From NCBI GenBank assembly GCA_021776075.1, contig JAJFGQ010000044.1:1-43883 (forward strand): a stretch of DNA of 43,883 nt, written 5' to 3'. A program made the translations under genes and the position numbers. Below the pieces are notes generated by a model, which searched no databases, was not told the origin of the DNA, and saw only the letters and a list, made by a program, of their open reading frames with translations. Each line of letters begins with the position of its first letter. The first letter of the stretch is position 1. This document shows, piece by piece, positions 2,684 through 34,094 of this stretch. Source of the stretch: Alphaproteobacteria bacterium (GTDB taxonomy: Bacteria; Pseudomonadota; Alphaproteobacteria; Micavibrionales; Micavibrionaceae).

Positions 2684-4066
2684 CTATAATACCGGGCCCG
2701 GTAAAGCTTTTGTCATTTTTTCTTTAAGCTGCTCGACGGCATTTTCGCAATCTTCGTGTTTTTGGCTAATGGCGCGCAGAATTTTGCTGTCAAACCTATC
2801 AGAACGAAGATTACTCTCGACTTCCTTCTTCATGGCGTCAAAAACATGTTCATCAAGTCCCTGTTTCTGCGTTTCGTTGAAAAGCGCCTTCAGGCTTCTG
2901 CTCACACGCCATTTTTCCAGCCGTGATCCTTTTTTAACAGCCTTTAGCGCCTGCCGGGCATTAATCATGTAATAACCCAGCGCCGCATAGTTTCTAAATT
3001 TCTGAAGATCCTCTTTATAGGACCCTTCGGGTAAAGCTTTAATCTTCCTATCCAGTTTTTTTAACGCTTTTTTGGGTGCTCTACGCGGTGATTCAAAACC
3101 AAAAAGCAATGTAGCGGGTAAGCTTAAGGTGCCTCCGTAAAAAGCGCCTCCACCAACGAGGGCTTTACCGAAGAACGTGCCAATGACAGCCCATCCAATA
3201 CCGGCGGAAACAAGACCCACAGCAAAACCCCCTATAGCACCAAAGACAGCTGTACTGGGAAAACTTCCCTCCTGATCATACCAGTCTTTAAACCATTTTT
3301 TTCTGGCGATAGGGCCATAATGATGCTTATCGGCATATTCAAAGGCATCTTTTAAATTCTCAACAGCCTTAACGGATTTCTCAAACGGCTTTGCATGGTT
3401 TTTAATTTGAAGAGCACCATCTGTCTTGCTTTTTATCGTCTCTATATAATTGTCTATATTGTCCGGGCTCTCTATAAGAGCATTATCCTGAAATAAAACA
3501 GGCAGATTTGACCGAGTCTTTATAACGGGTTGGGAAAAATCGACCTTTTGTAAGGGCGGGCTTTGTTCCGCAATTCTATGCGCCCCGGTGGGGAAGTTTC
3601 CGTTTGTATGAATAACGCCGTCAAAAGCAACATGGGGCAGTCCGGCTTCGTCAAAAGGAATGCCGGCTTGTTCCTCCGCAAAAAACTTATAATGACGCTT
3701 TTCTGATTCTGTCGTACCGCGAACAACCGTTCTTTTAAAAGTAGGTTTTTCCTGCGTTTCAAACAAGGCGAGGCTGTAAAGCGCATCGAAAAAGCTAACC
3801 TCTTCCAGAATGGGGCTTCTTTTTTCCATGAAGCCGGATAACTCAAGACTCGTCATGCATTGAATAACATTCCAGAGTTTCGTGCCGGGTATCGCTATAG
3901 CTTCCCGCCACCGTGTATTCTGTTCTGTCGCTAATCCGGATACTCTTGTCCGAAACATGTGTCCTTCCGTGGGCTGAATAGCACGCGCCATAACAGCCAG
4001 ATTGGGCGAAAGCGAATCCGTATGAAGCTTTTCCTTACGAACCTGTCTTTTTTTATTTCCAGCCAT
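2684..4066 (-). CDS. Member 1 of a four-copy membrane-hairpin family of unknown function
   Basis: A 460-aa protein. ATG 4066 is preceded by GAAGGG at good spacing; an in-frame TTG at 4072 would sit too close to it. I do not recognise the family, but three more members lie at 9862-13981. Shared blocks, in order: LHTDS at the N-terminus, FRTR, RWREA followed by a Trp, FFDALYSLALFE, HYKFFAEE, and LKDAFEYADKHHYG. Then comes a Gly/Ala-rich hydrophobic stretch (about residues 270-325) that could form a transmembrane hairpin. It is followed by KKLDRKIKALPEG, a helical segment with INARQALKAVKKGS, and the end LPGPVL. The hydrophobic stretch has no preceding signal peptide, suggesting an inner-membrane protein with both soluble parts on the same side (inference). 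This copy is separated from its relatives by the origin and the hem-rho block. Confidence 0.8.
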   Translation of the reverse strand: MAGNKKRQVRKEKLHTDSLSPNLAVMARAIQPTEGHMFRTRVSGLATEQNTRWREAIAIPGTKLWNVIQCMTSLELSGFMEKRSPILEEVSFFDALYSLALFETQEKPTFKRTVVRGTTESEKRHYKFFAEEQAGIPFDEAGLPHVAFDGVIHTNGNFPTGAHRIAEQSPPLQKVDFSQPVIKTRSNLPVLFQDNALIESPDNIDNYIETIKSKTDGALQIKNHAKPFEKSVKAVENLKDAFEYADKHHYGPIARKKWFKDWYDQEGSFPSTAVFGAIGGFAVGLVSAGIGWAVIGTFFGKALVGGGAFYGGTLSLPATLLFGFESPRRAPKKALKKLDRKIKALPEGSYKEDLQKFRNYAALGYYMINARQALKAVKKGSRLEKWRVSRSLKALFNETQKQGLDEHVFDAMKKEVESNLRSDRFDSKILRAISQKHEDCENAVEQLKEKMTKALPGPVL

Positions 4067-4151
4067 GCACAATGCCCTTCAAGGCCATTATAAAACAATA
4101 CACCGTGTCTTAGCACACAACTATGGAAAAAGCAAGTTTTACGGAAAAGGG

Positions 4152-4766
4152 CTACTGGCCAAAAATATCATCCAGAACAGGCATATCTTCAACCAGCAAT
4201 TCTTCGTCAGACAGATTAACAAGCCCGGACGGCGATACAATTACACTGGTTTTAAACAAAGAATCTTTAAACATCATACTGGCAACAAGATGATAGGACC
4301 CGTCATCATCAATCTTTGTTACAAGAACAGATTCTATCATTTTTCCGATAGCTTTACGGGCGGCGGGCGGCGGTTCTTCTTTCCACTGAATATCATCAAC
4401 AGTCTCGGTGATAATAAACCGGCCATGCTTTCCTTTCACATAGCTGAAAAAAAACTGAACATAATCAACAGCTGTATTTTCATCCAGAAGAAGGGGCGCT
4501 TTTTCATTCAGGGCGTAAACGGGTTCATTTGTCCCGTTCAGAACAACGACATCGCCGGGCTTATATATAATGAAGCGTCTTGCGTGCGGCACGACCTCAT
4601 AATCAGCAATATCAAGAAACCGGTAATCGGGATAAAAAGAAAGCTTCTGTCCTAAAATTGTAACTGTTTCACTGTCAAAAGAACTTCCCTCCAAAACAGG
4701 GTTTATGTCTTCCAGCACCGTTTCGGATTCAAGCGCATCCAGTTTTATAAAAGCATCCTGAAACAT
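4152..4766 (-). CDS. Conserved hypothetical protein next to the putative origin
   Basis: A 204-aa soluble protein with no signal peptide or membrane segment, made up of alternating beta-like stretches such as RFIIYKPGDVVVLNG and RFIITETVDDIQW. The start is ATG 4766, preceded by GAGGGA at eight bases; an adjacent in-frame TTG at 4769 is less well placed. I do not recognise a family. It is the first gene to the left of the putative origin and is transcribed away from it. That is the position held by a conserved gene opposite hemE in Caulobacter and Rickettsia, but I see no similarity that would let me equate them. The 85-bp gap to the next gene (2684-4066) allows co-transcription. Confidence 0.75.
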   Translation of the reverse strand: MFQDAFIKLDALESETVLEDINPVLEGSSFDSETVTILGQKLSFYPDYRFLDIADYEVVPHARRFIIYKPGDVVVLNGTNEPVYALNEKAPLLLDENTAVDYVQFFFSYVKGKHGRFIITETVDDIQWKEEPPPAARKAIGKMIESVLVTKIDDDGSYHLVASMMFKDSLFKTSVIVSPSGLVNLSDEELLVEDMPVLDDIFGQ

Positions 4767-4769
4767 CAA

Positions 4770-5182
4770 AAAAATTCCCTCTGTTTTCCGTCTTCTCCCA
4801 TAACATATATCATAATCTTACAGGGAAGTGATTCGGTTTTTTTATCCTCAGGGTCCTGTGGAAAGTCGGCCATAAGCTATCTGCAAAAAAGAGGGATGAA
4901 ACTTATTCATGATTCATTCTATCTGTTTTAAACCGAGTCATGCCCTGTGCGAAACTCTAAAACAGATCCTGTGGAAAAGTGGGCAATAAAAAGCGACTCG
5001 GTAAAGAACAAGACCACACAGAAGTTAACAATGTGTTAAGGAATCGGGTATATTTTTTAATCCTCGTAATTCACAGGCATCAAATACAATCTAATCCTTT
5101 AAATAAATATCTTTTTATATTGTTATTGATTTGCTTTCATAGCGTCCATGTTAAAACGAATTGCAAAACAGGACACGTTGAA
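4770..5182. other. Putative chromosomal replication origin (oriC) region
   Basis: This 413-bp non-coding gap lies between divergent gene blocks, directly upstream of hemE, where oriC lies in Caulobacter and Rickettsia. It contains two DnaA-like boxes sharing TCCTGTGGAAA (4858-4866 and 4970-4978; reverse complements CTTTCCACA and TTTTCCACA), each close to TTATCCACA. A CtrA-type box lies at 5025-5039. Five GANTC sites lie within 216 bp (4830, 4911, 4935, 4995, 5041). There are two inverted repeats: ATCTGTTTTA 4921-4930 with TAAAACAGAT 4958-4967, and ACCGAGTC 4932-4939 with GACTCGGT 4995-5002. An AT-rich stretch at about 5047-5140 could be the unwinding element. Genes on both sides run outward. 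The features are seen directly; origin function is inferred from context. The hemE promoter must also lie here. Confidence 0.7.
5025..5039. promoter_or_regulatory. Candidate CtrA box in the putative origin
   Basis: TTAA, seven bases (CAATGTG), TTAA. The minus strand also supplies the trailing C of the TTAA-N7-TTAAC consensus. In Caulobacter, CtrA binds such boxes in the origin and blocks initiation; the same role here is inferred from the position next to hemE. Confidence 0.55.
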
Positions 5183-6235
5183 ATGAAACCCTTTCTGGCA
5201 ACACTTCAAGGCACAGTACAGAAAACACCGCCCTTTTGGTTTATGCGACAAGCGGGGCGTTATTTACCTGAATACAGGGAGCTTCGTGCCAAAGCAGGGG
5301 GTTTCCTCAATATGGTGTTTAATCCGGATATGGCCGTAGAGGTCACATTGCAACCGTTACGCCGATTTAATATGGACGCGGCCATTTTATTTTCGGACAT
5401 TTTGGTTATACCTCACGCCCTGAATCAAAATGTTTCTTTCACAGCAGGGGAAGGTCCTAAATTGAACCCGTTACGCTGTGAGGCGGATTTGTCCCTTTTG
5501 TCCAAAGATCGTTTTGATGAAATTCTCGAACCTGTTTATGAAACGGTAAGAGGAATCAGAAAAAATATGATCCGGGAAAAATTCTCTGATACGGCGTTAA
5601 TAGGTTTTGCCGGAGCGCCATGGACCGTTGCGTGCTATATGGTTGAAGGTGGAGGAAGCCGTGATTTTATTAATATAAAAAACTGGATTTATACTGATCC
5701 GGAAGGTTTTTCCAAACTGATTGATATCGTGGTTGAGGCCACTATTTGTTATTTAAAAAAACAGATTGAAGCTGGTGCAGAAGCGATACAAATTTTTGAT
5801 AGTTGGTCCGGCGTTTTGGACGAAAAACAATTTCGCCGCTGGGTTATAGATCCAACGCACCGTATCACTCAAAATTTGAAAAAAACATATCCTGATATTC
5901 CAATTATTGGCTTTCCACGGGGCGCCGGACCGCTTTATCGCGATTACGTACAAAAAACAGGTATAACGGCAATATCCATAGATTCCCAGATTCCAACAGA
6001 ATGGGCCGTTGAAAACCTGCAAACACAACAATCGGTACAAATGTCGATACAGGGCAATCTTGATCCGGCTTGTTTGCTGGCGGGGGGTGATATGTTGCGT
6101 GAAACAGCGGAAAATATAATGGCCACTTTTTCCGGAAAGCCTTTCATATTTAATCTGGGGCACGGTATCATAAAGGAAACGCCTCCGGAACATGTGGAAC
6201 AGCTTGTTTCCGTTATAAGAAGGGGTGTTTCATGA
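5183..6235 (+). CDS. hemE: Uroporphyrinogen decarboxylase
   Basis: HemE removes four carboxylates from uroporphyrinogen III to give coproporphyrinogen III in cytosolic haem synthesis. The 350-aa length is normal for the family. The signature PFWFMRQAGRYLPEYRE lies at the N-terminus, with the substrate-binding Arg pair, and GFAGAPWTVACYMVEGG and NLGHGI follow in the expected order. The frame stays open upstream to 4979, but that part is non-coding origin-like sequence; ATG 5183 gives the conserved N-terminus (MKPFLATL). Its stop overlaps the hemH start in ATGA, so translational coupling is likely. It heads hemE-hemH-hemJ. Confidence 0.97.
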   Translation: MKPFLATLQGTVQKTPPFWFMRQAGRYLPEYRELRAKAGGFLNMVFNPDMAVEVTLQPLRRFNMDAAILFSDILVIPHALNQNVSFTAGEGPKLNPLRCEADLSLLSKDRFDEILEPVYETVRGIRKNMIREKFSDTALIGFAGAPWTVACYMVEGGGSRDFINIKNWIYTDPEGFSKLIDIVVEATICYLKKQIEAGAEAIQIFDSWSGVLDEKQFRRWVIDPTHRITQNLKKTYPDIPIIGFPRGAGPLYRDYVQKTGITAISIDSQIPTEWAVENLQTQQSVQMSIQGNLDPACLLAGGDMLRETAENIMATFSGKPFIFNLGHGIIKETPPEHVEQLVSVIRRGVS

Positions 6236-9274: not shown

Positions 9275-9865
9275 ATGAACAAACCCGCAAAAAAAAGTGG
9301 GACGATCATCGGGAGGTTTCTTACTTTTGCGCTTATGTTGATATTTGTGTCGATGTTGAGCGCTTGCGCCACGGACCCATCTCTTCATACGATGGCTCCG
9401 CCGCCGCCTGTAACCCGTGATGCGTCTTTTCCAGTGCCAAAATCAGGCCTCGTATTGTCTGTTCCACCCCATTATGCCGTAGAAAAGCGAAACACAAACC
9501 CTCTTTCCTCTCCTTTACAGGACGCAGCCTATGAAGTTGCTTTGAATAGCAAAAACAAAGGGGGCGGAAAATGCCGTATAAAAGACAGGTTTGACCGAAA
9601 GATGTTGTTGGCCTATGAGTTTGATGATGATCAAAGCCGGTTGGGTTTTGATGTAGATGGCGTTGGTTTTGATAATATGAATATAGAACAGGTTAGATTT
9701 GAATTTAATTATAAATTTAGTCCCGGGAAAACGAAAAAACAAAAATGCCGTTATCGCTCTTCTTTTCAGGGTATAGCGGGGTCTGCTTATAATGAATTAT
9801 TCATCAGGGATAAAGATACAATTTGGACGGAACTGGATGAACGCGGCCTGAGCTGGTGGCGTTAA
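9275..9865 (+). CDS. Putative lipoprotein of unknown function
   Basis: A 196-aa protein; ATG 9275 is preceded by AGGA at suitable spacing. The N-terminus is basic (NKPAKKSG), followed by a hydrophobic stretch and a lipobox ending LSAC at about residue 30, so it should be lipid-modified and anchored in a membrane. A Pro-rich linker (APPPPPV) follows, then a domain with KCRIKDRFDRKMLLAYEFDDD and a second Cys-containing segment KKQKCRYRSSF. The two Cys could pair in the periplasm. I do not recognise the domain. Its stop overlaps that of the convergent gene at 9862. Confidence 0.8.
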   Translation: MNKPAKKSGTIIGRFLTFALMLIFVSMLSACATDPSLHTMAPPPPVTRDASFPVPKSGLVLSVPPHYAVEKRNTNPLSSPLQDAAYEVALNSKNKGGGKCRIKDRFDRKMLLAYEFDDDQSRLGFDVDGVGFDNMNIEQVRFEFNYKFSPGKTKKQKCRYRSSFQGIAGSAYNELFIRDKDTIWTELDERGLSWWR

Positions 9866-11232
9866 GTGTTTTTAGGCGCCATTAGGGCCGCCATGGTTTT
9901 TACCTTCATTGTTTTTAATGTATCGGTGGTGCCAAGTAATTTTTTTATGCGGTTTTCCCGGTCTTTTTTCGCGGCTTTTTCAAATTTAAATGATTGAGAA
10001 TCTTTTCTGAGTGTCATGGAAAGGGCCGCTATACTTTCCTTATTCGGTTTTTCGTGATTTTCTCCGCTTCGTTCCTGTTTTTGCGCTATTTTGGCCATAT
10101 CTTTTTGGCACGCCATAGCACGTCGGTTTTCCCACCATGAGTCCTTTTTAATTTGGCGGTAAGCATGAAGTGCGCGCGCCGTATAAAAGCTTAATTCAAT
10201 ATCATCCGTTAGGCTTTCCAGCGCCTGTTTATAATCAACACCCTTCACATGAACACCATCAGGAAGAGCCGTTGCCTTTTTTCTGAGATCCGACAGCTTT
10301 TTTTCAAAACGGCGTTTAGGGCACGCCATTTCTGGTTTGTTCTCCAGCTTTGTACCGACAGCCCTGCCCAGAACATTTGCCGCTGTAAAGCCGCCCCATA
10401 CCCAGGCCGCCATTGTGGGGCTGAAAAGGAGGTAGCTTGCTATAGTCGGGAAGGAAATCAAATGATCCAGCGGTGTAAAAATGGTGTTTACGGCCATATA
10501 TCTAGGGAGGTTGGCCTTTTGTTTGCGGCTATCTTCATGCCACGCAAATGTATAATCTCCCTTTTTTATAAAGCTGTTATAGTCATTTTCAACGGCATAA
10601 TCGAAGGCCTCCTTCAGATCAATAAGGGCTGTTTGAATACCGTTCAGGCTTTGTTCAAGCTTATGGGCTTTTTTTAAGGCTAATTTGTTACCTTGTAATG
10701 TTTCCAGACTGTTTGTGGCAGGTTTTTGGATAGCAAGGCGGTATTTTTCCGTCGGCGCCGCATCCGTTTTTTCACGAATGTCCGGCATAGGTTTATACAT
10801 ATTATCAAATTCGATATTCGCGCGGGCGGCAAAGTTTTTATAATAAACATCACCTAATTGAGAAATAGTTTCACCGACCAGTTTGCGCTCTTGCCCCGGC
10901 AAAGGAACATTTTCAAACAGGGCACAGCTATGCAAGACATCGCAAAGGTTGCCTTCTTTTATAAGGGCTCCTTTATCTGCTTGGGTCTCTATGTTTGTTG
11001 TTTCGGTTTTAAAATCCGGGGCTGTTTTATATTGATAAAGATTCCAGCCTTTTTTGCTGTTGCGTTCTGCTTCCAGCCAGACAATATTCCAGTCCCGCTC
11101 ACCCCGTAGCTTGTCCTGAAAGGCGCGCGTGCGAAACGGACCGCCTTCGGGAACATCATAATTTTTCAGAAGCCTTTTGAGAGCCGCATCTTTAATGGAA
11201 TCGGTATAAAGTTTTCTTGTTTGTTTTGTCAT
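9862..11232 (-). CDS. Member 2 of the four-copy membrane-hairpin family
   Basis: A 456-aa protein, the last gene of a three-gene leftward operon, whose ATG overlaps the stop of the previous member in ATGA. Family blocks: KLYTDSIKD, FRTR, VWLEA followed by a Trp, LCDVLHSCALFE, YYKNFAARANIEFD, LKEAFDYAVENDYN, a hydrophobic stretch (about residues 245-295), LRKKATALPDG, and ELSFYTARALHAYRQIKKDS. This copy is the most divergent at the C-terminus: a Lys-rich tail replaces the LLGP-type ending of the others. Function unknown. It converges on the lipoprotein gene, with stops overlapping by four bases. Confidence 0.82.
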   Translation of the reverse strand: MTKQTRKLYTDSIKDAALKRLLKNYDVPEGGPFRTRAFQDKLRGERDWNIVWLEAERNSKKGWNLYQYKTAPDFKTETTNIETQADKGALIKEGNLCDVLHSCALFENVPLPGQERKLVGETISQLGDVYYKNFAARANIEFDNMYKPMPDIREKTDAAPTEKYRLAIQKPATNSLETLQGNKLALKKAHKLEQSLNGIQTALIDLKEAFDYAVENDYNSFIKKGDYTFAWHEDSRKQKANLPRYMAVNTIFTPLDHLISFPTIASYLLFSPTMAAWVWGGFTAANVLGRAVGTKLENKPEMACPKRRFEKKLSDLRKKATALPDGVHVKGVDYKQALESLTDDIELSFYTARALHAYRQIKKDSWWENRRAMACQKDMAKIAQKQERSGENHEKPNKESIAALSMTLRKDSQSFKFEKAAKKDRENRIKKLLGTTDTLKTMKVKTMAALMAPKNT

Positions 11233-12539
11233 TTTGGGCCCAATCGGAGAAGGTTGTTTGCATTGTCACTAAAACCATAGATGTCTTTTTCTATGCTTAA
11301 TAAAAGTGTTTTGTCATAGGTTTTTTCTGTCAGTCTGTTAGGTAGGGACAGTTTTAATTCTGTTATTTCATTACCCTCCCAGCCCTGTTTTACGGCTATT
11401 TTTTCGATACGTTTTAAAGCCCGGTCGATATAACTTTTTGATTTTTTTCCGACAGCAGCATCGCGAAAAACCTGCCGGGCCCAGAGGATATGGAATCCCA
11501 TTTCGACTTTATCAGAGAAGTGCCGCAGGGCGTCTTTCTGTGGCCCTTCAGGATAGCGGGCAACATCTCTGTTTAACTGCGCCAACCTGTTTTTAAAGGC
11601 CCGGCGCGGCAGGTTAACACCTTGTTTGATACAGAGATATACGCTAGAAGCGACACCGCCAAAAATTGTTGATAAGACGGCCGTGCCGGAAGCGTCGGAC
11701 GATACTATTGCTAAGGGAATTATGGGAAGAATCCCCCCCAACACGGGCGCAAAAAGGAGACCGGGCCCGTTATCAAGATGGTCCCAGATATTGAATTTTT
11801 TCTTTACGGTGTAATTGAACTCTGTTTCCAGTTTTTTGATAATACCCAGTGTTTGGTGGAAACGGGAGCTGACTTCTATTTTTTGTTCAATCTCTTGCTT
11901 TTCGTTATCGTTCAACAGAGCCATAGCCACAGATCCATTTTCATAGGTGGGTAGCGGCGGCGTGCTTCGTGATGGCGGTACGGGGCGCTTTACAGGCTCA
12001 TCTTTTCTTTTTTCGGCTGTCTCGTACGCAACGGGTAGGAAGTTTCCTTCTGTCACAATGCGTCCTTTGACCGGCGGATGGGGCATGCCATCCGTATCAA
12101 GAGGAATACCTTCCTCTTTGGCAAAATCTTTATAATGTGAGATACCCTTTTGTGTTTCTTCTTCTTGGTCCGTGACGGTGCGTCTTAAATCGTTTTCACC
12201 CTTTTCAAGATAAGCACAATAATGAAGGGCATCAAAAAGACAGAGGTCTGGAAGAAATCCTTTGCGGCGTATAGCCAGATCAGGTGAAGCAACTTCACCG
12301 GCGGGGAGGTTTTTGCTGCACGTGAAGATGTCCCATTGTTGTGTGACGGGGTTTAGATTTGCTTCCCACCAGCGTGTGCTTATTTCAGAGTTTTTGTGAG
12401 TGCGGGACGCTTTTGTGCAAAAGGCGGTGTTCTTGCCTAACCCCGTCATCATACGCGCAACATCACGCAGCCATAACGGTTCTGCCGTATTGGTGTACAG
12501 GTTTTTGCGTAAGCTATTATTTTTGTTGTTTTTTGCCAT
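11229..12539 (-). CDS. Member 3 of the four-copy membrane-hairpin family
   Basis: A 436-aa protein starting at ATG 12539 behind AGGA. Family blocks: NLYTNT, FCTK in place of FRTR, RWWEA followed by a Trp, LFDALHYCAYLE, HYKDFAKEEGIPLD followed by GMPHPP, LETEFNYTVKKKFN, a clear double hydrophobic stretch (about residues 255-305), LNRDVARYPEG, and EMGFHILWARQVFRDAAVG. It ends in LLRLGPK. The GNF segment (TEGNFLPV) after the PH motif is shared only with member 1 (NGNFPTG), so members 1 and 3 look like closer relatives, and 2 and 4 form the other pair. Middle gene of the operon; overlaps member 2 by ATGA. Confidence 0.82.
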   Translation of the reverse strand: MAKNNKNNSLRKNLYTNTAEPLWLRDVARMMTGLGKNTAFCTKASRTHKNSEISTRWWEANLNPVTQQWDIFTCSKNLPAGEVASPDLAIRRKGFLPDLCLFDALHYCAYLEKGENDLRRTVTDQEEETQKGISHYKDFAKEEGIPLDTDGMPHPPVKGRIVTEGNFLPVAYETAEKRKDEPVKRPVPPSRSTPPLPTYENGSVAMALLNDNEKQEIEQKIEVSSRFHQTLGIIKKLETEFNYTVKKKFNIWDHLDNGPGLLFAPVLGGILPIIPLAIVSSDASGTAVLSTIFGGVASSVYLCIKQGVNLPRRAFKNRLAQLNRDVARYPEGPQKDALRHFSDKVEMGFHILWARQVFRDAAVGKKSKSYIDRALKRIEKIAVKQGWEGNEITELKLSLPNRLTEKTYDKTLLLSIEKDIYGFSDNANNLLRLGPK

Positions 12540-12562: not shown

Positions 12563-13981
12563 TTATGTGACTGCCGGGCCGAGAAGGCGCGATTTTTTTT
12601 GTTCATCCAGTGCCAGAAAACGGTCTTCACTGCCCTCTGATTCTTTGATAAGAGTGCTTACATTATTAATGAGGTCTGTATCAAAGTCATAGGAGTCGAG
12701 GTTTTGTTGCAAGTTTAGGGATAAGGCATTGATCTGTTCTTTTGTGCAGCCTTGTTTTGCCGCCACATTAAAATGGTCTTTTGTACTTTTCCAGATACGG
12801 AATTGTTCCCTCAGACTACCTGTTTTCATGTCCCGGTGGGCTTGCCGGGTGCGTAACGTGTAAAAAGTAAGCTCCGTTTCATCGGCTATATTGTGCAGCA
12901 TTTTTTTTAATTCAACGCCGTCCTTATTGTGTAGCCCGTCCGGCAGGGCTTCAATTTTACGGCGGAACCTGGATAAAGATCTTTTAAACTGTCCTTTCGG
13001 CAGTTCAAATATGGGGCGCTCTTCTATGTCGTTGTGATAGGTATAGCTCTGTCCAAATAAGAAGAGATAACCAACAAGGCCCGTTACAAGCATGTAGGTG
13101 CCACCGCCCAGCATCATCCCCGTCATTGATGATTCTGTGAGGGCACAAATAGATAACCCCATGGGCGCACCCAAGGCAGACCCGCTTCCTATATATCGAG
13201 CCACAAATTTATCAAGACCCGGTTCTGTTTTATGACCGAAGGCCCCCCTATAGTTAAAGCGCCATTCTCCTTCTTGAGAAAAGGTTTTATAATTATGCTC
13301 CCGTGCAATCTCAAAAGCGTCTGTCAGTGTTGTTAAAGCATGGGCGCAATTGCTGAATTTTGCCGTAAATTGTTCCGCCCGCCGGGTAATTTTTTGTTCT
13401 TCTTTCTGTATACGCACCAAGGATTTTTGTTCGATTTTGGCCTTTGCTGCCTTTTCTTTAGCGGTTTGCCGCAATTGTTGCGGGTTTGTTAAAGCCGGGT
13501 TCAGATTTCGCGGCGCGATCATGTATTTTTGCAGGGCCGATTTCTTTTTTTGGCCCGGTGTCGGTAAATGCGGCCTGTTTTGTTTGTCGAATGTAATATC
13601 CTCTTTTGCTGCGAATTCTTCGTAATGCATTATGTCTGAATTATTTGTTGTCGGAATGCGGTCCTGCAAATCGACTTTTTCAAACAGGGCGCAATTGTAA
13701 AGCGCATCCATCACGCTGGTTTTTTCAAGAACCGGCGTTTCTTCTTTTTTGGTACTAAACCCCCCGTTTTGATTAAGTCCGGCTTTGATATCAGGCTTTA
13801 TAACGGTTTCATAAACGGTCCAAAGGCTGTTGTCTTTATCTTGTCGCGCCTCCCGGTGTCGGATTTCCTCCAGCGTCTTATATTGAAAAGACGCTGTGCG
13901 GAAGGAAGCGCCGTGCAGTGCCTTGAAATTTTGGGCCTGACGTTTTTTTTCCGGGTCTTTGATTGAATCGGTATAAAGCAT
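12563..13981 (-). CDS. Member 4 of the four-copy membrane-hairpin family
   Basis: A 472-aa protein and first gene of the three-gene operon. An upstream in-frame GTG (14017) exists, but ATG 13981 gives MLYTDSIKDPEKKR, matching member 2, and follows AGGA. Family blocks: FRTA, RHREA followed by a Trp, VMDALYNCALFE, HYEEFAAKEDITFD, a long basic coiled-coil-like segment rich in Lys, Glu and Gln (about residues 165-210), LTDAFEIAREHNYK, a Gly-rich hydrophobic hairpin (about residues 255-320), FRRKIEALPDG, ELTFYTLRTRQAHRDMKTGS, and the end LLGPAVT. Only 23 bases separate it from member 3. Function unknown. Confidence 0.82.
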   Translation of the reverse strand: MLYTDSIKDPEKKRQAQNFKALHGASFRTASFQYKTLEEIRHREARQDKDNSLWTVYETVIKPDIKAGLNQNGGFSTKKEETPVLEKTSVMDALYNCALFEKVDLQDRIPTTNNSDIMHYEEFAAKEDITFDKQNRPHLPTPGQKKKSALQKYMIAPRNLNPALTNPQQLRQTAKEKAAKAKIEQKSLVRIQKEEQKITRRAEQFTAKFSNCAHALTTLTDAFEIAREHNYKTFSQEGEWRFNYRGAFGHKTEPGLDKFVARYIGSGSALGAPMGLSICALTESSMTGMMLGGGTYMLVTGLVGYLFLFGQSYTYHNDIEERPIFELPKGQFKRSLSRFRRKIEALPDGLHNKDGVELKKMLHNIADETELTFYTLRTRQAHRDMKTGSLREQFRIWKSTKDHFNVAAKQGCTKEQINALSLNLQQNLDSYDFDTDLINNVSTLIKESEGSEDRFLALDEQKKSRLLGPAVT

Positions 13982-14311
13982 TTTTACTTTTTCCTGTGCT
14001 GCATTTACATAGCACACCTGTTTCCAGAATACAAATATAATTTTTGATATGTTTCAGGGGGCCAAGCTATTCTTTTGGCAGGAAAGTTTTAGATATAGCG
14101 ACTATATTTTTTAAAAACCCGGGCAAAATATAATAAAATTATTCTTATTTTTTAATGACTTACGCGTTAATTTCGAAACGATAATGTTTGCCATAATGCT
14201 ATTTTTGTGTTTAAACTGAGATTAGGTGCCAACGGGTATCTGAAACGATCTGCGGTTATAAAAATTAAGCTTCGATCTTTGTGATAACGAAGCATTAGGG
14301 TGGGAAAACAA
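13982..14311. promoter_or_regulatory. AT-rich divergent intergenic region with inverted repeat
   Basis: A 330-bp gap between divergent genes; it must hold the promoters of the three-gene family operon (leftward) and of the 172-aa protein (rightward). An inverted repeat ATATAG-CGA-CTATAT lies at 14093-14107, about 110 bp before the operon start. A weaker one, GCTTCG/CGAAGC, lies near the rightward start. I see no confident -35/-10 pair. Confidence 0.4.
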
Positions 14312-18413: not shown

Positions 18414-19789
18414 CAGATACGATTTATGCATTAGCAACCGCACCGGGGCGGGCAAGCGTTGCGATAGTCCGTGTTTCCGGCCCCTGTGCGCATGAAAGCC
18501 GGAGGCTTATTGCGGAAAGGCCGTTTGAAAGAGCCCCTCTTGGAGTGATTCCTTTTGGGATACCTCCTGGCGCTCCTCTTAAAACCCCCTCCCCCACCCA
18601 TGTATTATGTAAATTAATAAACCCTGTTTCACGTGAAACAATAGACCGGGCGCTGGTTTTGTCTTTTGAGTCACCGGCCAGCTTTACGGGCGAAGACGTT
18701 GTTGAGTATCAGCTTCATGGTGGTCCTGCTATTGTATCCTCCTTGTTGGCGGTGCTTTCAAGCCAGCCCGGCCACCGGATGGCGGAGCCGGGGGAGTTCA
18801 CGCGCCGTGCTTTCGAAAACGGCAAAATGGACTTAACGGCAGCGGAGGCGGTGGCAGATTTAATCAATGCCGAAACACAGGCCCAAAAAGCACAGGCTCT
18901 GTCACAAATGGAGGGTTCTTTGTCCCGTCTTTATGATGGGTGGCGGGAAGATCTATCCCGGGCGCTGGCTTATTTGGAGGCGGACATAGACTTTCCCGAT
19001 GAAGATTTGCCTGGTGGCGCTATGTCACAGGTCCGCCCTGCCCTTGAGGCCATTCTCTCTGCTATAAAAGAACATCTGGATGATAAAAATCGTGGGGAGC
19101 GTTTGCGGAGCGGTATTCAGGTTGCTGTTATAGGCGCACCGAATGCGGGTAAATCGAGCTTGGTAAATGCTCTTGCGAAACGGGATGTGGTTATTGTTTC
19201 TGCTCATGCCGGAACAACGCGGGATGTGATTGAAGTTCATCTGGATTTGGGGGGTTATCCGGTTATCCTTGCGGATACGGCCGGCTTGCGCCCCGACCAA
19301 CTCCGGGGTACAGCGCAGGATTCTATAGAATCCGAAGGCATAAGACGGGCGCTTGATCGGGCGAAGCAGGCGGATATTCGTGTGCTGTTATTTGATATGA
19401 CACAGGAAGAAGAGGATACCCATACGCTGGCCTTGCAAGACGATCAGTCGATTAAGGTTTTTAATAAATGTGACCAGTCCGTTGCCGGGAATGAACTGGC
19501 GGTTTCCGCTAAAACCGGAGAGGGCCTCGATGTTTTGATAGAGACATTGACGGCCCGGATTAAAGATATTCTGGGGACCCGTGAGACTCCTTCTCTCACC
19601 CAACACCGTCATCGTGAGGCTTTGGAAGAGTGTCTCGGTTCTTTATTGCGGGCGCAGACAGGAACGCAGGCGGAGCTTGTTGCTGAGGATGTGCGTCTTG
19701 CTATGCGGGCGCTGGGTCGTATTACAGGGCGTGTGGATGTAGAAGATTTACTGGATGTTATTTTCCGCGATTTCTGTATCGGGAAGTAA
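18410..19789 (+). CDS. mnmE: tRNA modification GTPase MnmE
   Basis: MnmE works with MnmG to place the 5-carboxymethylaminomethyl group on U34 of certain tRNAs. From ATG 18410 (AAGG upstream) it is 459 aa and begins DTIYALATAPGRASVAIVRVSG, the conserved formyl-THF-binding domain start. Then come the helical domain and the inserted G domain with P-loop GAPNAGKSSLVNAL, DTAGLR and NKCD. The C-terminus is FCIGK, which carries the essential Cys. An earlier in-frame start at 18341 overlaps the upstream gene and is rejected. The coding sequence holds a perfect parS site at 18625-18640. Confidence 0.97.
   Translation: MTDTIYALATAPGRASVAIVRVSGPCAHESRRLIAERPFERAPLGVIPFGIPPGAPLKTPSPTHVLCKLINPVSRETIDRALVLSFESPASFTGEDVVEYQLHGGPAIVSSLLAVLSSQPGHRMAEPGEFTRRAFENGKMDLTAAEAVADLINAETQAQKAQALSQMEGSLSRLYDGWREDLSRALAYLEADIDFPDEDLPGGAMSQVRPALEAILSAIKEHLDDKNRGERLRSGIQVAVIGAPNAGKSSLVNALAKRDVVIVSAHAGTTRDVIEVHLDLGGYPVILADTAGLRPDQLRGTAQDSIESEGIRRALDRAKQADIRVLLFDMTQEEEDTHTLALQDDQSIKVFNKCDQSVAGNELAVSAKTGEGLDVLIETLTARIKDILGTRETPSLTQHRHREALEECLGSLLRAQTGTQAELVAEDVRLAMRALGRITGRVDVEDLLDVIFRDFCIGK
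18625..18640. other. parS centromere site 1
   Basis: TGTTTCACGTGAAACA is an exact match to the universal parS palindrome bound by ParB. It lies inside mnmE, where it encodes VSRET, about 13.6 kb from the putative origin and 4.6 kb from parB. Confidence 0.95.
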
Positions 19790-21721: not shown

Positions 21722-22318
21722 ATGGAGGCTTCTTCCGAAACCCGCGCCCGTCTGGATCAATATCAGGCCCTGTTGTTGAAGTGGCAAAAGGCCGTTAATC
21801 TGGTGAGTGGGAAGACGCTGGACGAGGTCTGGGATAGGCATTTTGTAGATTCCGCACAATTGCTGCCGCTCATCCCCGCAGGAAAGAAAACGCTTTTTGA
21901 TATAGGAAGCGGGGCGGGGTTTCCAGGTCTTGTGCTCGCGATTATGAATCCGGCACTGGATGTTCATTTGATAGAATCTGATCACAAAAAATGCACATTC
22001 TTATCCACTGTTTCACGTGAAACAAAAACACCCGTAACAATACATAGTGAGCGTGTTGAAAACATGTCAAAGAAAATTGTCCCCGCTATTGTAACGGCGC
22101 GGGCCTTAGCTTCTCTGGATAAGTTGATGGCGTATTGTCTGCCCTGGGCAGAGAGGAATCCGGCGCTTATTATGTTGTTTTTAAAGGGTGAAAAGGCAGA
22201 GGCGGAAATTAAAGAAGCGCGCAAAAAATTTAGCTTCGGTCTTCAAAAACACCAGAGTCAGACAATGGATAATGCGGCTATTTTGGAGGTTTCGAATCTG
22301 TGTATAACCAGTAGGTGA
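21722..22318 (+). CDS. rsmG: 16S rRNA (guanine527-N7)-methyltransferase
   Basis: RsmG (GidB) methylates G527 in the 530 loop of 16S rRNA using S-adenosylmethionine. The protein is 198 aa from ATG 21722, one base after the mnmG stop, with GGAAGG upstream. Family marks are LLLKWQKAVNLVSGKTLDEVWDRHFVDSAQL, the SAM-binding DIGSGAGFPGLVLAI, IESDHKKCTFL, and VTARALASLDKLMAY. A second parS site lies within it and replaces part of the usual sequence after the IESD motif with VSRET. The C-terminus is a little shorter than in some relatives. Confidence 0.95.
   Translation: MEASSETRARLDQYQALLLKWQKAVNLVSGKTLDEVWDRHFVDSAQLLPLIPAGKKTLFDIGSGAGFPGLVLAIMNPALDVHLIESDHKKCTFLSTVSRETKTPVTIHSERVENMSKKIVPAIVTARALASLDKLMAYCLPWAERNPALIMLFLKGEKAEAEIKEARKKFSFGLQKHQSQTMDNAAILEVSNLCITSR
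22009..22024. other. parS centromere site 2
   Basis: A second exact TGTTTCACGTGAAACA, inside rsmG, also read as VSRET. It is 3.4 kb from the first site and about 0.4 kb before parA. Two perfect sites near parAB are normal for bacterial chromosomes. Confidence 0.95.
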
Positions 22319-22410
22319 GAAACCGTTTTTCTTGACCAATGGGCGCGATTTCTGGCATCGTAGCCTTTGTTCCAGACAAACAATTTAGCCAGTGGAGTGA
22401 GACCGCCATC

Positions 22411-23274
22411 ATGACGCAATATCCAGCGCGCTATCCCCTGACTTCAAAGCCGCCCCGTACGTCATCATCTGTAACGGTATCCCGTATCCCCCGTATTCTG
22501 GCTGTTGCCAATCAAAAGGGCGGTGTGGGTAAAACGACGACAGCCATTAATTTGGCAACCGGTCTTTGTGCTGTAGGAAAACGTGTTCTTTTGGTCGATC
22601 TTGATCCGCAGGGTAACGCCTCTACGGGGTTGGGGGTCAGGCGCTCAACGATCCAGAAAAGCACTTATGATGTTATTTTCGGCGATGTAAATGTTCTGGA
22701 TGCTCTTGTGAAAACCAAGGTACCCGGCCTGTCTGTGGTGCCCTCTTCTGTCCATTTGTCGGGGGCCGAAATCGAACTGGTTACGGCCAAGCGCCGGGAA
22801 TACAGGCTGCGGGAGGCCTTGCGCAACCCCATGCCCTACGATTACATTATCATTGATTGCCCCCCCTCTCTGAATTTGCTGACGCTTAATGCGCTGGTGG
22901 CGACCGATTCGATTGTTGTTCCGCTGCAATGCGAATTTTATGCTCTGGAAGGGCTTAGCCATCTGGTGAAAACGGTGGAGCGTGTCAAGAAGACCTATAA
23001 CCCCCGTTTGAATATTCACGGTGTGTTGTTAACCATGTATGACAAGCGGAATAATTTATCCGGTATGGTCGCCCGTGACGTTCGTAAATTTTTTGGTGAT
23101 AAGGTTTATAAAACGGTTATTCCCCGCAATGTCAGGGTATCAGAAGCCCCTTCTTATGGCTTGCCGGCCATTGTCTATGATATGAGATGCCCCGGTGCGC
23201 AGGCGTACATACATCTGGCTGGTGAAGTTTTGAAGCGCGAACGTAAATTAATGGGCCAAAGCAGGGCGGCGTGA
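22411..23274 (+). CDS. parA: Chromosome partitioning ATPase ParA
   Basis: ParA is a deviant-Walker ATPase that binds DNA non-specifically and moves ParB-parS complexes. From ATG 22411 it is 287 aa; a start at 22339 is also open but adds an unlike N-terminus. It carries the deviant Walker A motif QKGGVGKTTTA, DLDPQGNASTGLG, YIIIDCPPSLNLLTLNAL and VPLQCEFYALEGL, all classic. It also has VIPRNVRVSEAPSYG, shared by chromosomal ParA/Soj. The roughly 25-residue N-terminal extension before the ATPase fold is Ser/Pro rich. It sits 92 bp after rsmG and runs directly into parB. Confidence 0.96.
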   Translation: MTQYPARYPLTSKPPRTSSSVTVSRIPRILAVANQKGGVGKTTTAINLATGLCAVGKRVLLVDLDPQGNASTGLGVRRSTIQKSTYDVIFGDVNVLDALVKTKVPGLSVVPSSVHLSGAEIELVTAKRREYRLREALRNPMPYDYIIIDCPPSLNLLTLNALVATDSIVVPLQCEFYALEGLSHLVKTVERVKKTYNPRLNIHGVLLTMYDKRNNLSGMVARDVRKFFGDKVYKTVIPRNVRVSEAPSYGLPAIVYDMRCPGAQAYIHLAGEVLKRERKLMGQSRAA

Positions 23275-23279
23275 TTTCC

Positions 23280-24224
23280 ATGACTGACAGTGATATTCCA
23301 GAAGAAAAAACAGACGAGGCCATAGATCCTAAAAATCGCGGTCTGGGGCGCGGTCTGGGCGCGTTGTTTGAGGATGAGGAGGGTGTTTACCCACAGGTTG
23401 GTTCGGAGGGGCACACGCCCGGCTCAAAGCGCCTTATGATGGGAGTCGGCGAGCTGGAGCCGGGAACGTATCAGCCCCGGCGTGATTTTCATGATGATAC
23501 CCTGAAAGAGCTAGCCGAATCGATTGCCGTGCATGGTGTTTTGCAGCCGCTGATCGTCCGGAAAAAAAGTGGTTTTGATGATTTGTATGAGATTATTGCC
23601 GGGGAACGCCGCTGGCGTGCCGCACAAATAGCGCAGCTTCATGAGGTTCCTGTTATTGTTCATAAGCTGGATGATAAAGCCTGTCTTGAGATTGCTCTGA
23701 TCGAGAACTTACAGCGCGAAGACCTTAATTCCATTGATGAAGCACGCGGCTATAGCGATTTAATAGAAGAGTTCGGCCATACGCAGGAAAAGTTGGCGGC
23801 GATTGTGGGGAAAAGCCGTAGCCATATTGCAAATACCGTGCGGCTGCTGAGCCTGCCTTCCGGTGTTTGTAAGCTTGTGCGGGAGGGTAAGCTAAGCGCC
23901 GGCCATGCGCGGGCGCTTATCACGGCAAAGAACCCCGAGGAGCTGGCAAAAATTATTGTAAATCAAGGGCTTAGCGTTCGAGAAACAGAGCGGTTGGTTG
24001 CCGATGAAGGTGACCGTCCAGACAAGGCGAAAAAACAGAAAGCGGAAAAAAGTGTCGACACGCTGGCTCTGGAAGAGGAAATATCAAACGCATTGGGAAT
24101 GAAGGTTGCGATTAGTGTAAAGGGCCAGTCAGGTGCCATGAAAATTTCCTTTAAAAATCTCGATCAATTAGATGAGGTTTTGCATCGTTTGTCCCATTAT
24201 CCCGGGCGCTCTCAGGCAGGCTGA
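23280..24224 (+). CDS. parB: Chromosome partitioning protein ParB
   Basis: ParB binds parS and spreads as a CTP-dependent clamp, serving segregation and origin positioning. From ATG 23280 it is 314 aa; a GTG at 23271 that overlaps the parA stop is an alternative. It begins with the RGLGRGLGALF segment seen in chromosomal ParB. The CTP-binding parts include QPRRDF, the GERRWRAAQIA box and ENLQREDLN. The helix-turn-helix (GHTQEKLAAIVGKSRSHIANTVRLLSLP) and a C-terminal dimer domain follow. Its sites at 18625 and 22009 are close by. A stem-loop follows the gene. Confidence 0.96.
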   Translation: MTDSDIPEEKTDEAIDPKNRGLGRGLGALFEDEEGVYPQVGSEGHTPGSKRLMMGVGELEPGTYQPRRDFHDDTLKELAESIAVHGVLQPLIVRKKSGFDDLYEIIAGERRWRAAQIAQLHEVPVIVHKLDDKACLEIALIENLQREDLNSIDEARGYSDLIEEFGHTQEKLAAIVGKSRSHIANTVRLLSLPSGVCKLVREGKLSAGHARALITAKNPEELAKIIVNQGLSVRETERLVADEGDRPDKAKKQKAEKSVDTLALEEEISNALGMKVAISVKGQSGAMKISFKNLDQLDEVLHRLSHYPGRSQAG

Positions 24225-33398: not shown

Positions 33399-34094
33399 AT
33401 GAATATAAAAGCCGGTAAAATTATTGCCGTTATTTCCGATGATGTTTTGCGGGCCTTACTGGAAGATGCCTTTAAACGCTATATTGTCGGTGATGTCGTT
33501 TTTTATAAAACGGGGCAGGCGGCGCTTGAGGATATTCAAGAGATGCAGGATCATATACAAGCGGGCGTTGTTCTGCTGTTTGATTCATTGCCGGATATGG
33601 ATACAGAGGCCTTTCATGGGGAAGTCAGGAAAGGGACAAGGGCTTTACCGCTCATGATTGTTTTTCCTTCTGCTGAAGTCGGTAATATTGATATTCCAAA
33701 AAATGATGTATTTCACTGGCCTTTACGGATGGGAACTTTTCTTGATCGCATAGAAAAACACAGACGGCAGGAGCAGCTTTCATGGAGCGGTGTTAAAATC
33801 TGTATTGGTCCGTACAGGCTTATGCCGGAGGAAGGGCTTTTGGTTGGTGACGGCGATCACTGTACTGTGCGTCTGACAGAAAAAGAACGCGATATTCTGT
33901 TGAAATTATATCAGCAAAAAGGTGAAATTATAGACCGCCGTGAATTGTTGGATGATGTCTGGGGGTATGTGGAGGGCATGGAAACGCACACACTGGAAAC
34001 GCATATATACCGTTTGCGGCAAAAGCTGGAAGAAGACCCTGCAAAACCGCTCTATCTGGTAACGGACGGTATGGGCTATAAGCTGGCTGTTTAG
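33399..34094 (+). CDS. OmpR/PhoB-like response regulator with atypical receiver
   Basis: A 231-aa two-domain protein. Residues 1-120 form a receiver-like domain with the acidic pair Asp14-Asp15 and a candidate phospho-acceptor Asp62 (LLFDSLPDMD). The conserved Lys of the K-P motif is Trp107 (HWPLR), and the usual Thr/Ser switch position is unclear (FPSAE). Residues 130-231 form a winged helix of the OmpR type: RLTEKERDILLKLYQQ, RRELLDDVWGYVEGMETHTLETHIYRLRQKL, then the wing YLVTDGMGYKLAV. It should bind DNA, but normal phosphorylation-driven switching is doubtful. No histidine kinase is adjacent. Its stop overlaps that of the convergent gene at 34091. Confidence 0.88.
   Translation: MNIKAGKIIAVISDDVLRALLEDAFKRYIVGDVVFYKTGQAALEDIQEMQDHIQAGVVLLFDSLPDMDTEAFHGEVRKGTRALPLMIVFPSAEVGNIDIPKNDVFHWPLRMGTFLDRIEKHRRQEQLSWSGVKICIGPYRLMPEEGLLVGDGDHCTVRLTEKERDILLKLYQQKGEIIDRRELLDDVWGYVEGMETHTLETHIYRLRQKLEEDPAKPLYLVTDGMGYKLAV

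Follow-up and report, generated by a model that had tools for sequence, protein, structure and literature searches.

RESULTS AND DISCUSSION

The divergent gap beside hemE

The window, by which we mean the whole stretch of 43883 nt analysed here, contains a divergent gap of 413 bp (4770–5182) that was assigned as a putative oriC from its sequence elements and the skew minimum of the window. The flanking genes point outward on both sides, as described earlier from the sequence. On the right, the gap adjoins hemE (5183–6235, + strand), encoding uroporphyrinogen decarboxylase (PF01208, E = 1.9e-113), and on the left it is bordered by an ORF of ~204 amino acids (4152–4769, − strand), which is kept at this place across the order. 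The best named match of HemE was found in the Micavibrio MAG L032 (54%), where the left border gene is also present (50%), suggesting a place for the host in or near the Micavibrionales. This left gene gave no match in Pfam or NCBIfam, and its product, for which a confident AlphaFold model was obtained (pLDDT 93), had no convincing fold match in the PDB (best Foldseek E = 0.08; best Z 4.7 over 53 residues), so that its assignment to a known factor was rejected. It borders oriC in about 47 genomes, has more distant paralogues elsewhere in its own genome, and shows a C-terminal match within larger proteins of other alphaproteobacteria. A search of Rfam with positions 4000–6000 gave no match.

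Several other ORFs of the neighbourhood were noted. Four diverged paralogues of ~440–480 amino acids with 23–29% identity (2684–4072, 9862–11232, 11229–12539 and 12563–14017, − strand) flank oriC on both sides, the first of them being without a Pfam match. The ORFs at 4–1425 and 1109–2473 (− strand) form a related pair, one of which matches DUF6782, a putative metallopeptidase. Also in the origin region, the ORF at 33399–34094 (+ strand) encodes a protein with an OmpR-type DNA-binding domain, in which Pfam finds no receiver domain.

Origin identity and encoded machinery

The cumulative GC skew of the window reached its minimum at 5233, 50 bp past the gap. Since the host assembly consists of 87 contigs, the origin skew was drawn from the window together with the chromosomes of three relatives (G021, G022 and G023; two single-contig and one with a main contig of 2.13 Mb), each sampled as twenty 20-kb stretches. 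All three showed a sign change at hemE and a peak far away. Within the 20-kb loci of several other relatives the minimum fell away from hemE, which we attribute to local noise or rearrangement. In addition, the window carries two perfect parS sites, TGTTTCACGTGAAACA at 18625–18640 and a second at 22009–22024 (both + strand), compared with 0.13 expected even when three mismatches are allowed, and parA and parB follow at 22339–24224 (+ strand), placing both parS sites and parAB within 20 kb of the gap. An mnmE-gidA-gidB cluster is encoded in the window as well. The sequence features looked for in a hemE-type alphaproteobacterial oriC were all found, namely the skew minimum, the hemE border, DnaA boxes with an AT-rich tract, and parS/parAB. 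Judged from these sequence features, the gap is almost certainly the chromosomal replication origin. The origin function proposed by the sequence-only reading is therefore supported by the skew of the window, the sampled skew of the three relatives, parS/parAB and an unwinding module common to the family (see below).

The host genome encodes GcrA, a single DnaA, CtrA (NF045991, 418 bits, cut-off 350) and CcrM. The best PDB match of the last was 6pbd (E = 3e-156), and it scored 627 bits against NF050803, which is under the Caulobacter-specific equivalog cut-off of 830. Among the 38 genomes searched (own and relatives), the RAMA domain, the C-terminal domain of CcrM, was present in 37 and GcrA in 36. 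The dnaA, ctrA and ccrM genes looked for in the host were thus all found, and the origin proposal faces neither a skew minimum elsewhere nor a genome lacking ctrA and ccrM with unconserved boxes.

DnaA boxes and a predicted unwinding module

Three DnaA-like boxes were located in the left and central parts of the gap: TTATCCTCA at 4842–4850 (+ strand), with one mismatch to TTATCCACA; CTTTCCACA plus GGA at 4854–4865 (− strand); and TTTTCCACA plus GGA at 4967–4978 (− strand). The latter two are the pair reported earlier, with the common 11-base core TCCTGTGGAAA at 4854 and 4967. The DnaA boxes of the window are weak, having 1–2 mismatches. Across the family, DnaA-type boxes numbered 25 compared with 3.6 in shuffles, and CACAGG was enriched. 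Two inverted repeats (4921–4930/4958–4967, 100%; 4924–4939/4995–5010, 81%) and an AT-rich tract at about 5050–5130 with 21–27% GC were also present as described, and composition predicts an AT-rich duplex unwinding element at 5098–5133, a position common to the family.

Alignment with relatives delimited a putative unwinding module at 5053–5118 (+ strand), which reaches the start of the AT-rich tract and is composed of the box TAATCCTCG (5058–5066), TTCACAGG (5070–5077) and a degenerate trio-like stretch (5078–5097). Between 5058 and 5111 the window reads TAATCCTCG-TAATTCACAGG-CATCAAATACAATCTAATCC-TTTAAATAAATATC, with the box and TCACAGG kept. Relatives aligned on hemE showed WATCCCC-N5-TCACAG, then CCCTACTATNTA in most, AAAACC and the AT-rich tract. 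The module lies beside hemE in at least 25 of the 31 genera of the family, as counted by eye, the automatic placement having missed or misplaced a few (L009 and L028 were visible in another alignment). No clear copy was seen for L016, L096, L188 and L190 in the hemE-anchored alignment. Between the box and the AT-rich tract, most relatives carry a CCTACTAT-like, putative trio stretch, which is degenerate in the window. We take the CTACTA-like stretch of the relatives to resemble the DnaA-trio described in 2016 by Richardson et al. (cited in PMC5043019). The relatives share with the Bacillus subtilis type the order of DnaA box, GC-rich spacer, CTACTA-like repeats and AT-rich tract. The likeness stops at the degenerate trio of the window, and the trio of the relatives is a predicted one.

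Some relatives gave no hemE match. Two of them (L276 and L279) keep the left gene but show no module and no GANTC in the adjoining DNA, and may have their origin at another place. Among the relatives without a hemE match, two contigs break 211–238 bp from the left gene and two have moved left genes, so that these genomes do not separate a promoter from an origin role of the sites.

A GANTC array at the origins of the family

As claimed earlier, five GANTC sites fall within 216 bp of the gap, with starts at 4830, 4911, 4935, 4995 and 5041. Site 1 (4830–4834; TGATTCG) and site 4 (4995–4999; CGACTCG) have the extended YGAKTCG form, of which there are only five in all 43.9 kb. Site 2 occupies 4911–4915, and site 3 (4935–4939) lies in GAGTCATGCCCTGTGCGAAA, GANTC-TGTG-GAAA segments like this one being visible in several relatives. 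Site 5 (5041–5045) is flanked by a promoter-like −35 and a promoter-like −10. Outside the oriC neighbourhood, no part of the window had a count above 3, and Markov shuffles of the gap gave five sites in 216 bp in 0.4% of cases. The chance rate of one per 256 bp assumed earlier was a little high, as the window holds 2.55 sites/kb. In a 306-kb sample of the host genome, such clusters occurred about once per 75 kb, and the cluster is therefore only mildly unusual within one genome. Its strength comes from conservation across the family.

In the 450 bp upstream of hemE, 123 GANTC sites were found in 24 genera compared with 42±6 in dinucleotide shuffles (z = 13), and 153 in 31 genera compared with 46.7 expected from composition. 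The observed/expected ratio in the family genomes was 0.52 in coding and 0.82 in other intergenic DNA. When all 16 XYNY'X' patterns were compared, GANTC alone was enriched, at a ratio of 3.28 with the next at 1.24; this comparison controls for relatedness because all of the patterns have the same ancestry. The density was confined to about −450 to −100 from hemE, peaking ~200 bp upstream of the gene and left of the AT-rich tract. Enrichment was 2.7-fold in other families of the order and 2.0-fold in the class, the latter value meaning little because GANTC is ~1.5-fold enriched in the intergenic DNA of CcrM-bearing orders (PMC3973325). Genomes of the class with a RAMA/CcrM match had a higher enrichment than those without (2.03 compared with 1.60), which was in the same direction but not significant (p = 0.15), and some members of the negative set may be incomplete genomes or have origins not beside hemE. 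Two members of family f7 (L198 and L199) carry 11–13 sites in this 450 bp, in runs spaced 11–15 bp. The GANTC counts indicate that the array at the family origins is very probably under selection. That the gap is ordinary AT-rich intergenic DNA with a chance cluster would fit the frequency of such clusters in the host genome; given the family-wide enrichment, the skew, parS and the common unwinding module, we regard it as scarcely credible.

The bases around the sites were also biased. Among the family origin sites, 39% had the YGAKTCG form compared with 8% in the background, and 23% were CGANTCG compared with 4.5%. The YGAKTCG form is specific to the family, accounting for 15% of sites elsewhere in the order and 12% in the class. 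Exact 10-bp pairs numbered 9 compared with about 1.5 expected from background spacing. PMC7987155 describes YGAKTCG as the extended motif found at methylated promoters that GcrA activates in Caulobacter crescentus (Haakonsen et al. 2015). Methylation of GANTC improves its binding by GcrA (PMC3667746). The flanking-base preference and the 10-bp spacing suggest that a protein may read the array.

Such a reader would be dispensable if methylation of the GANTC sites itself altered the binding of DnaA or the stability of the duplex. GANTC sites bracket the WATCCCC box in L082, L186, L187, L198 and L199, which favours this explanation. Over the family, adjacency of GANTC to DnaA boxes was not convincing (p = 0.19, 0.03 and 0.33 at three gap limits), and together with the flanking bases and spacing this makes a direct effect improbable. 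A placement like that of GATC beside the DnaA boxes of Escherichia coli was rejected, as the adjacency was not significant overall.

The main rival explanation is that the array serves hemE transcription. In its wider form, the GANTC sites are promoter elements through which GcrA and sigma70 control hemE or the left gene, and their placement at an origin is incidental. It draws on the reported GcrA-activation motif (PMC7987155) and on site 5, which lies between promoter-like elements directed toward hemE. Promoter-like hits were no more frequent than chance (1 compared with 1.5 expected), so the placement of site 5 is only a lead. Moreover, 4–8 sites over ~350 bp in many relatives exceed the need of a promoter, and the position of the density peak, left of the AT-rich tract, also counts against it. 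The absence of sites and module from the two relatives with the left gene and without hemE speaks against the promoter of the left gene, not that of hemE. On balance we consider the promoter explanation unlikely, while ranking it first among the rivals.

The CtrA-like site is not conserved

The TTAA-N7-TTAA box noted earlier is present at 5025–5039, one of four in the window, and overlaps a promoter-like −35 (TTAACA at 5025). Caulobacter-type licensing, in which phosphorylated CtrA would bind this box and exclude DnaA, is favoured by the presence of CtrA in the genome and of a full consensus in the gap, which arose at least once in 3.6% of Markov shuffles. In the relatives, however, TTAA-N7-TTAA was at chance level (2 in 24 genera compared with 1.2 by shuffling), TTAACCAT was not found in any of the 24 genera, and whether the family, the order or the class was considered, CtrA-like sites amounted to about 0.1 per origin. 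Licensing by CtrA, as put forward in the sequence-only reading, was therefore rejected and appears very unlikely. For the accompanying proposal of licensing by CcrM, the enzyme is encoded and its clustered sites are conserved; the words 'as Caulobacter does' were too strong, since C. crescentus lacking ccrM replicates normally, with a normal replication profile and DNA content (PMC3973325).

Proposed mechanism and comparison with known systems

Taken together, our results suggest that the gap is an alphaproteobacterial oriC of the standard kind, in which the array of methylation sites is unusually strong. The best overall explanation, to which we give a probability of roughly three in four, is an oriC with a selected CcrM array, possibly timed by methylation and with GcrA as the likeliest reader. 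DnaA would bind the weak boxes found across the gap. It would then unwind the AT-rich tract that immediately precedes hemE, at the family-wide module of box, TCACAG, trio-like stretch and AT-rich DNA. The selected CcrM-site array would sit to the left of this module. CcrM would methylate the array late in the cycle, and each firing would leave it hemimethylated until CcrM returned. A GANTC-methylation reader, most likely GcrA, may then shift its occupancy with the methylation state and thereby time or limit initiation, or transcription through the origin. Taken singly, methylation-timed control of initiation falls somewhat short of an even chance: the normal replication of C. crescentus without ccrM counts against it, as do the non-significant box adjacency and the class-wide CcrM comparison. 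The overall explanation is further weakened by the restriction of the extended motif to the family, by the CcrM score under the Caulobacter-specific cut-off and by the relatives whose local skew minimum lies away from hemE. The identification of GcrA as the reader of the array is more tentative. More speculative still is the proposal that CcrM sets once-per-cycle initiation in the family by methylating a GANTC array with helical spacing, for which GcrA or another protein would be the reader, as a CcrM counterpart of Dam/SeqA replacing CtrA silencing.

The closest parallel is Cori of C. crescentus, which has the hemE border, weak DnaA boxes, an AT-rich tract and the CtrA/CcrM/GcrA/DnaA gene set in common with the present locus; several GANTC sites have been reported in that origin (PMC3973325). 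As compared without alignment, the family differs from Cori in having no conserved CtrA sites, a GANTC array enriched ~3.3-fold with the YGAKTCG form and 10-bp pairs, and a conserved TCACAG and trio-like unwinding module. The Dam/SeqA GATC cluster of E. coli oriC is alike by analogy only, as a dense set of adenine-methylation sites at an origin, whereas here the methylase is CcrM, the site is GANTC and the overlap with boxes is not significant. In repABC replicons and Agrobacterium tumefaciens ori2, GANTC sites likewise occur in the replication/promoter region, and CcrM and GcrA affect replication (PMC11514494); those are plasmid-like origins with a RepC-type initiator, unlike the DnaA oriC described here.

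CcrM sites at alphaproteobacterial origins were already known, and their role stayed open because the replication control of Caulobacter survives their loss. A family with selected GANTC sites at oriC and without conserved CtrA sites is thus a natural test system for two questions, namely whether adenine methylation can control when an origin fires in organisms outside the Dam/SeqA lineage, and whether the action of GcrA extends to origins.
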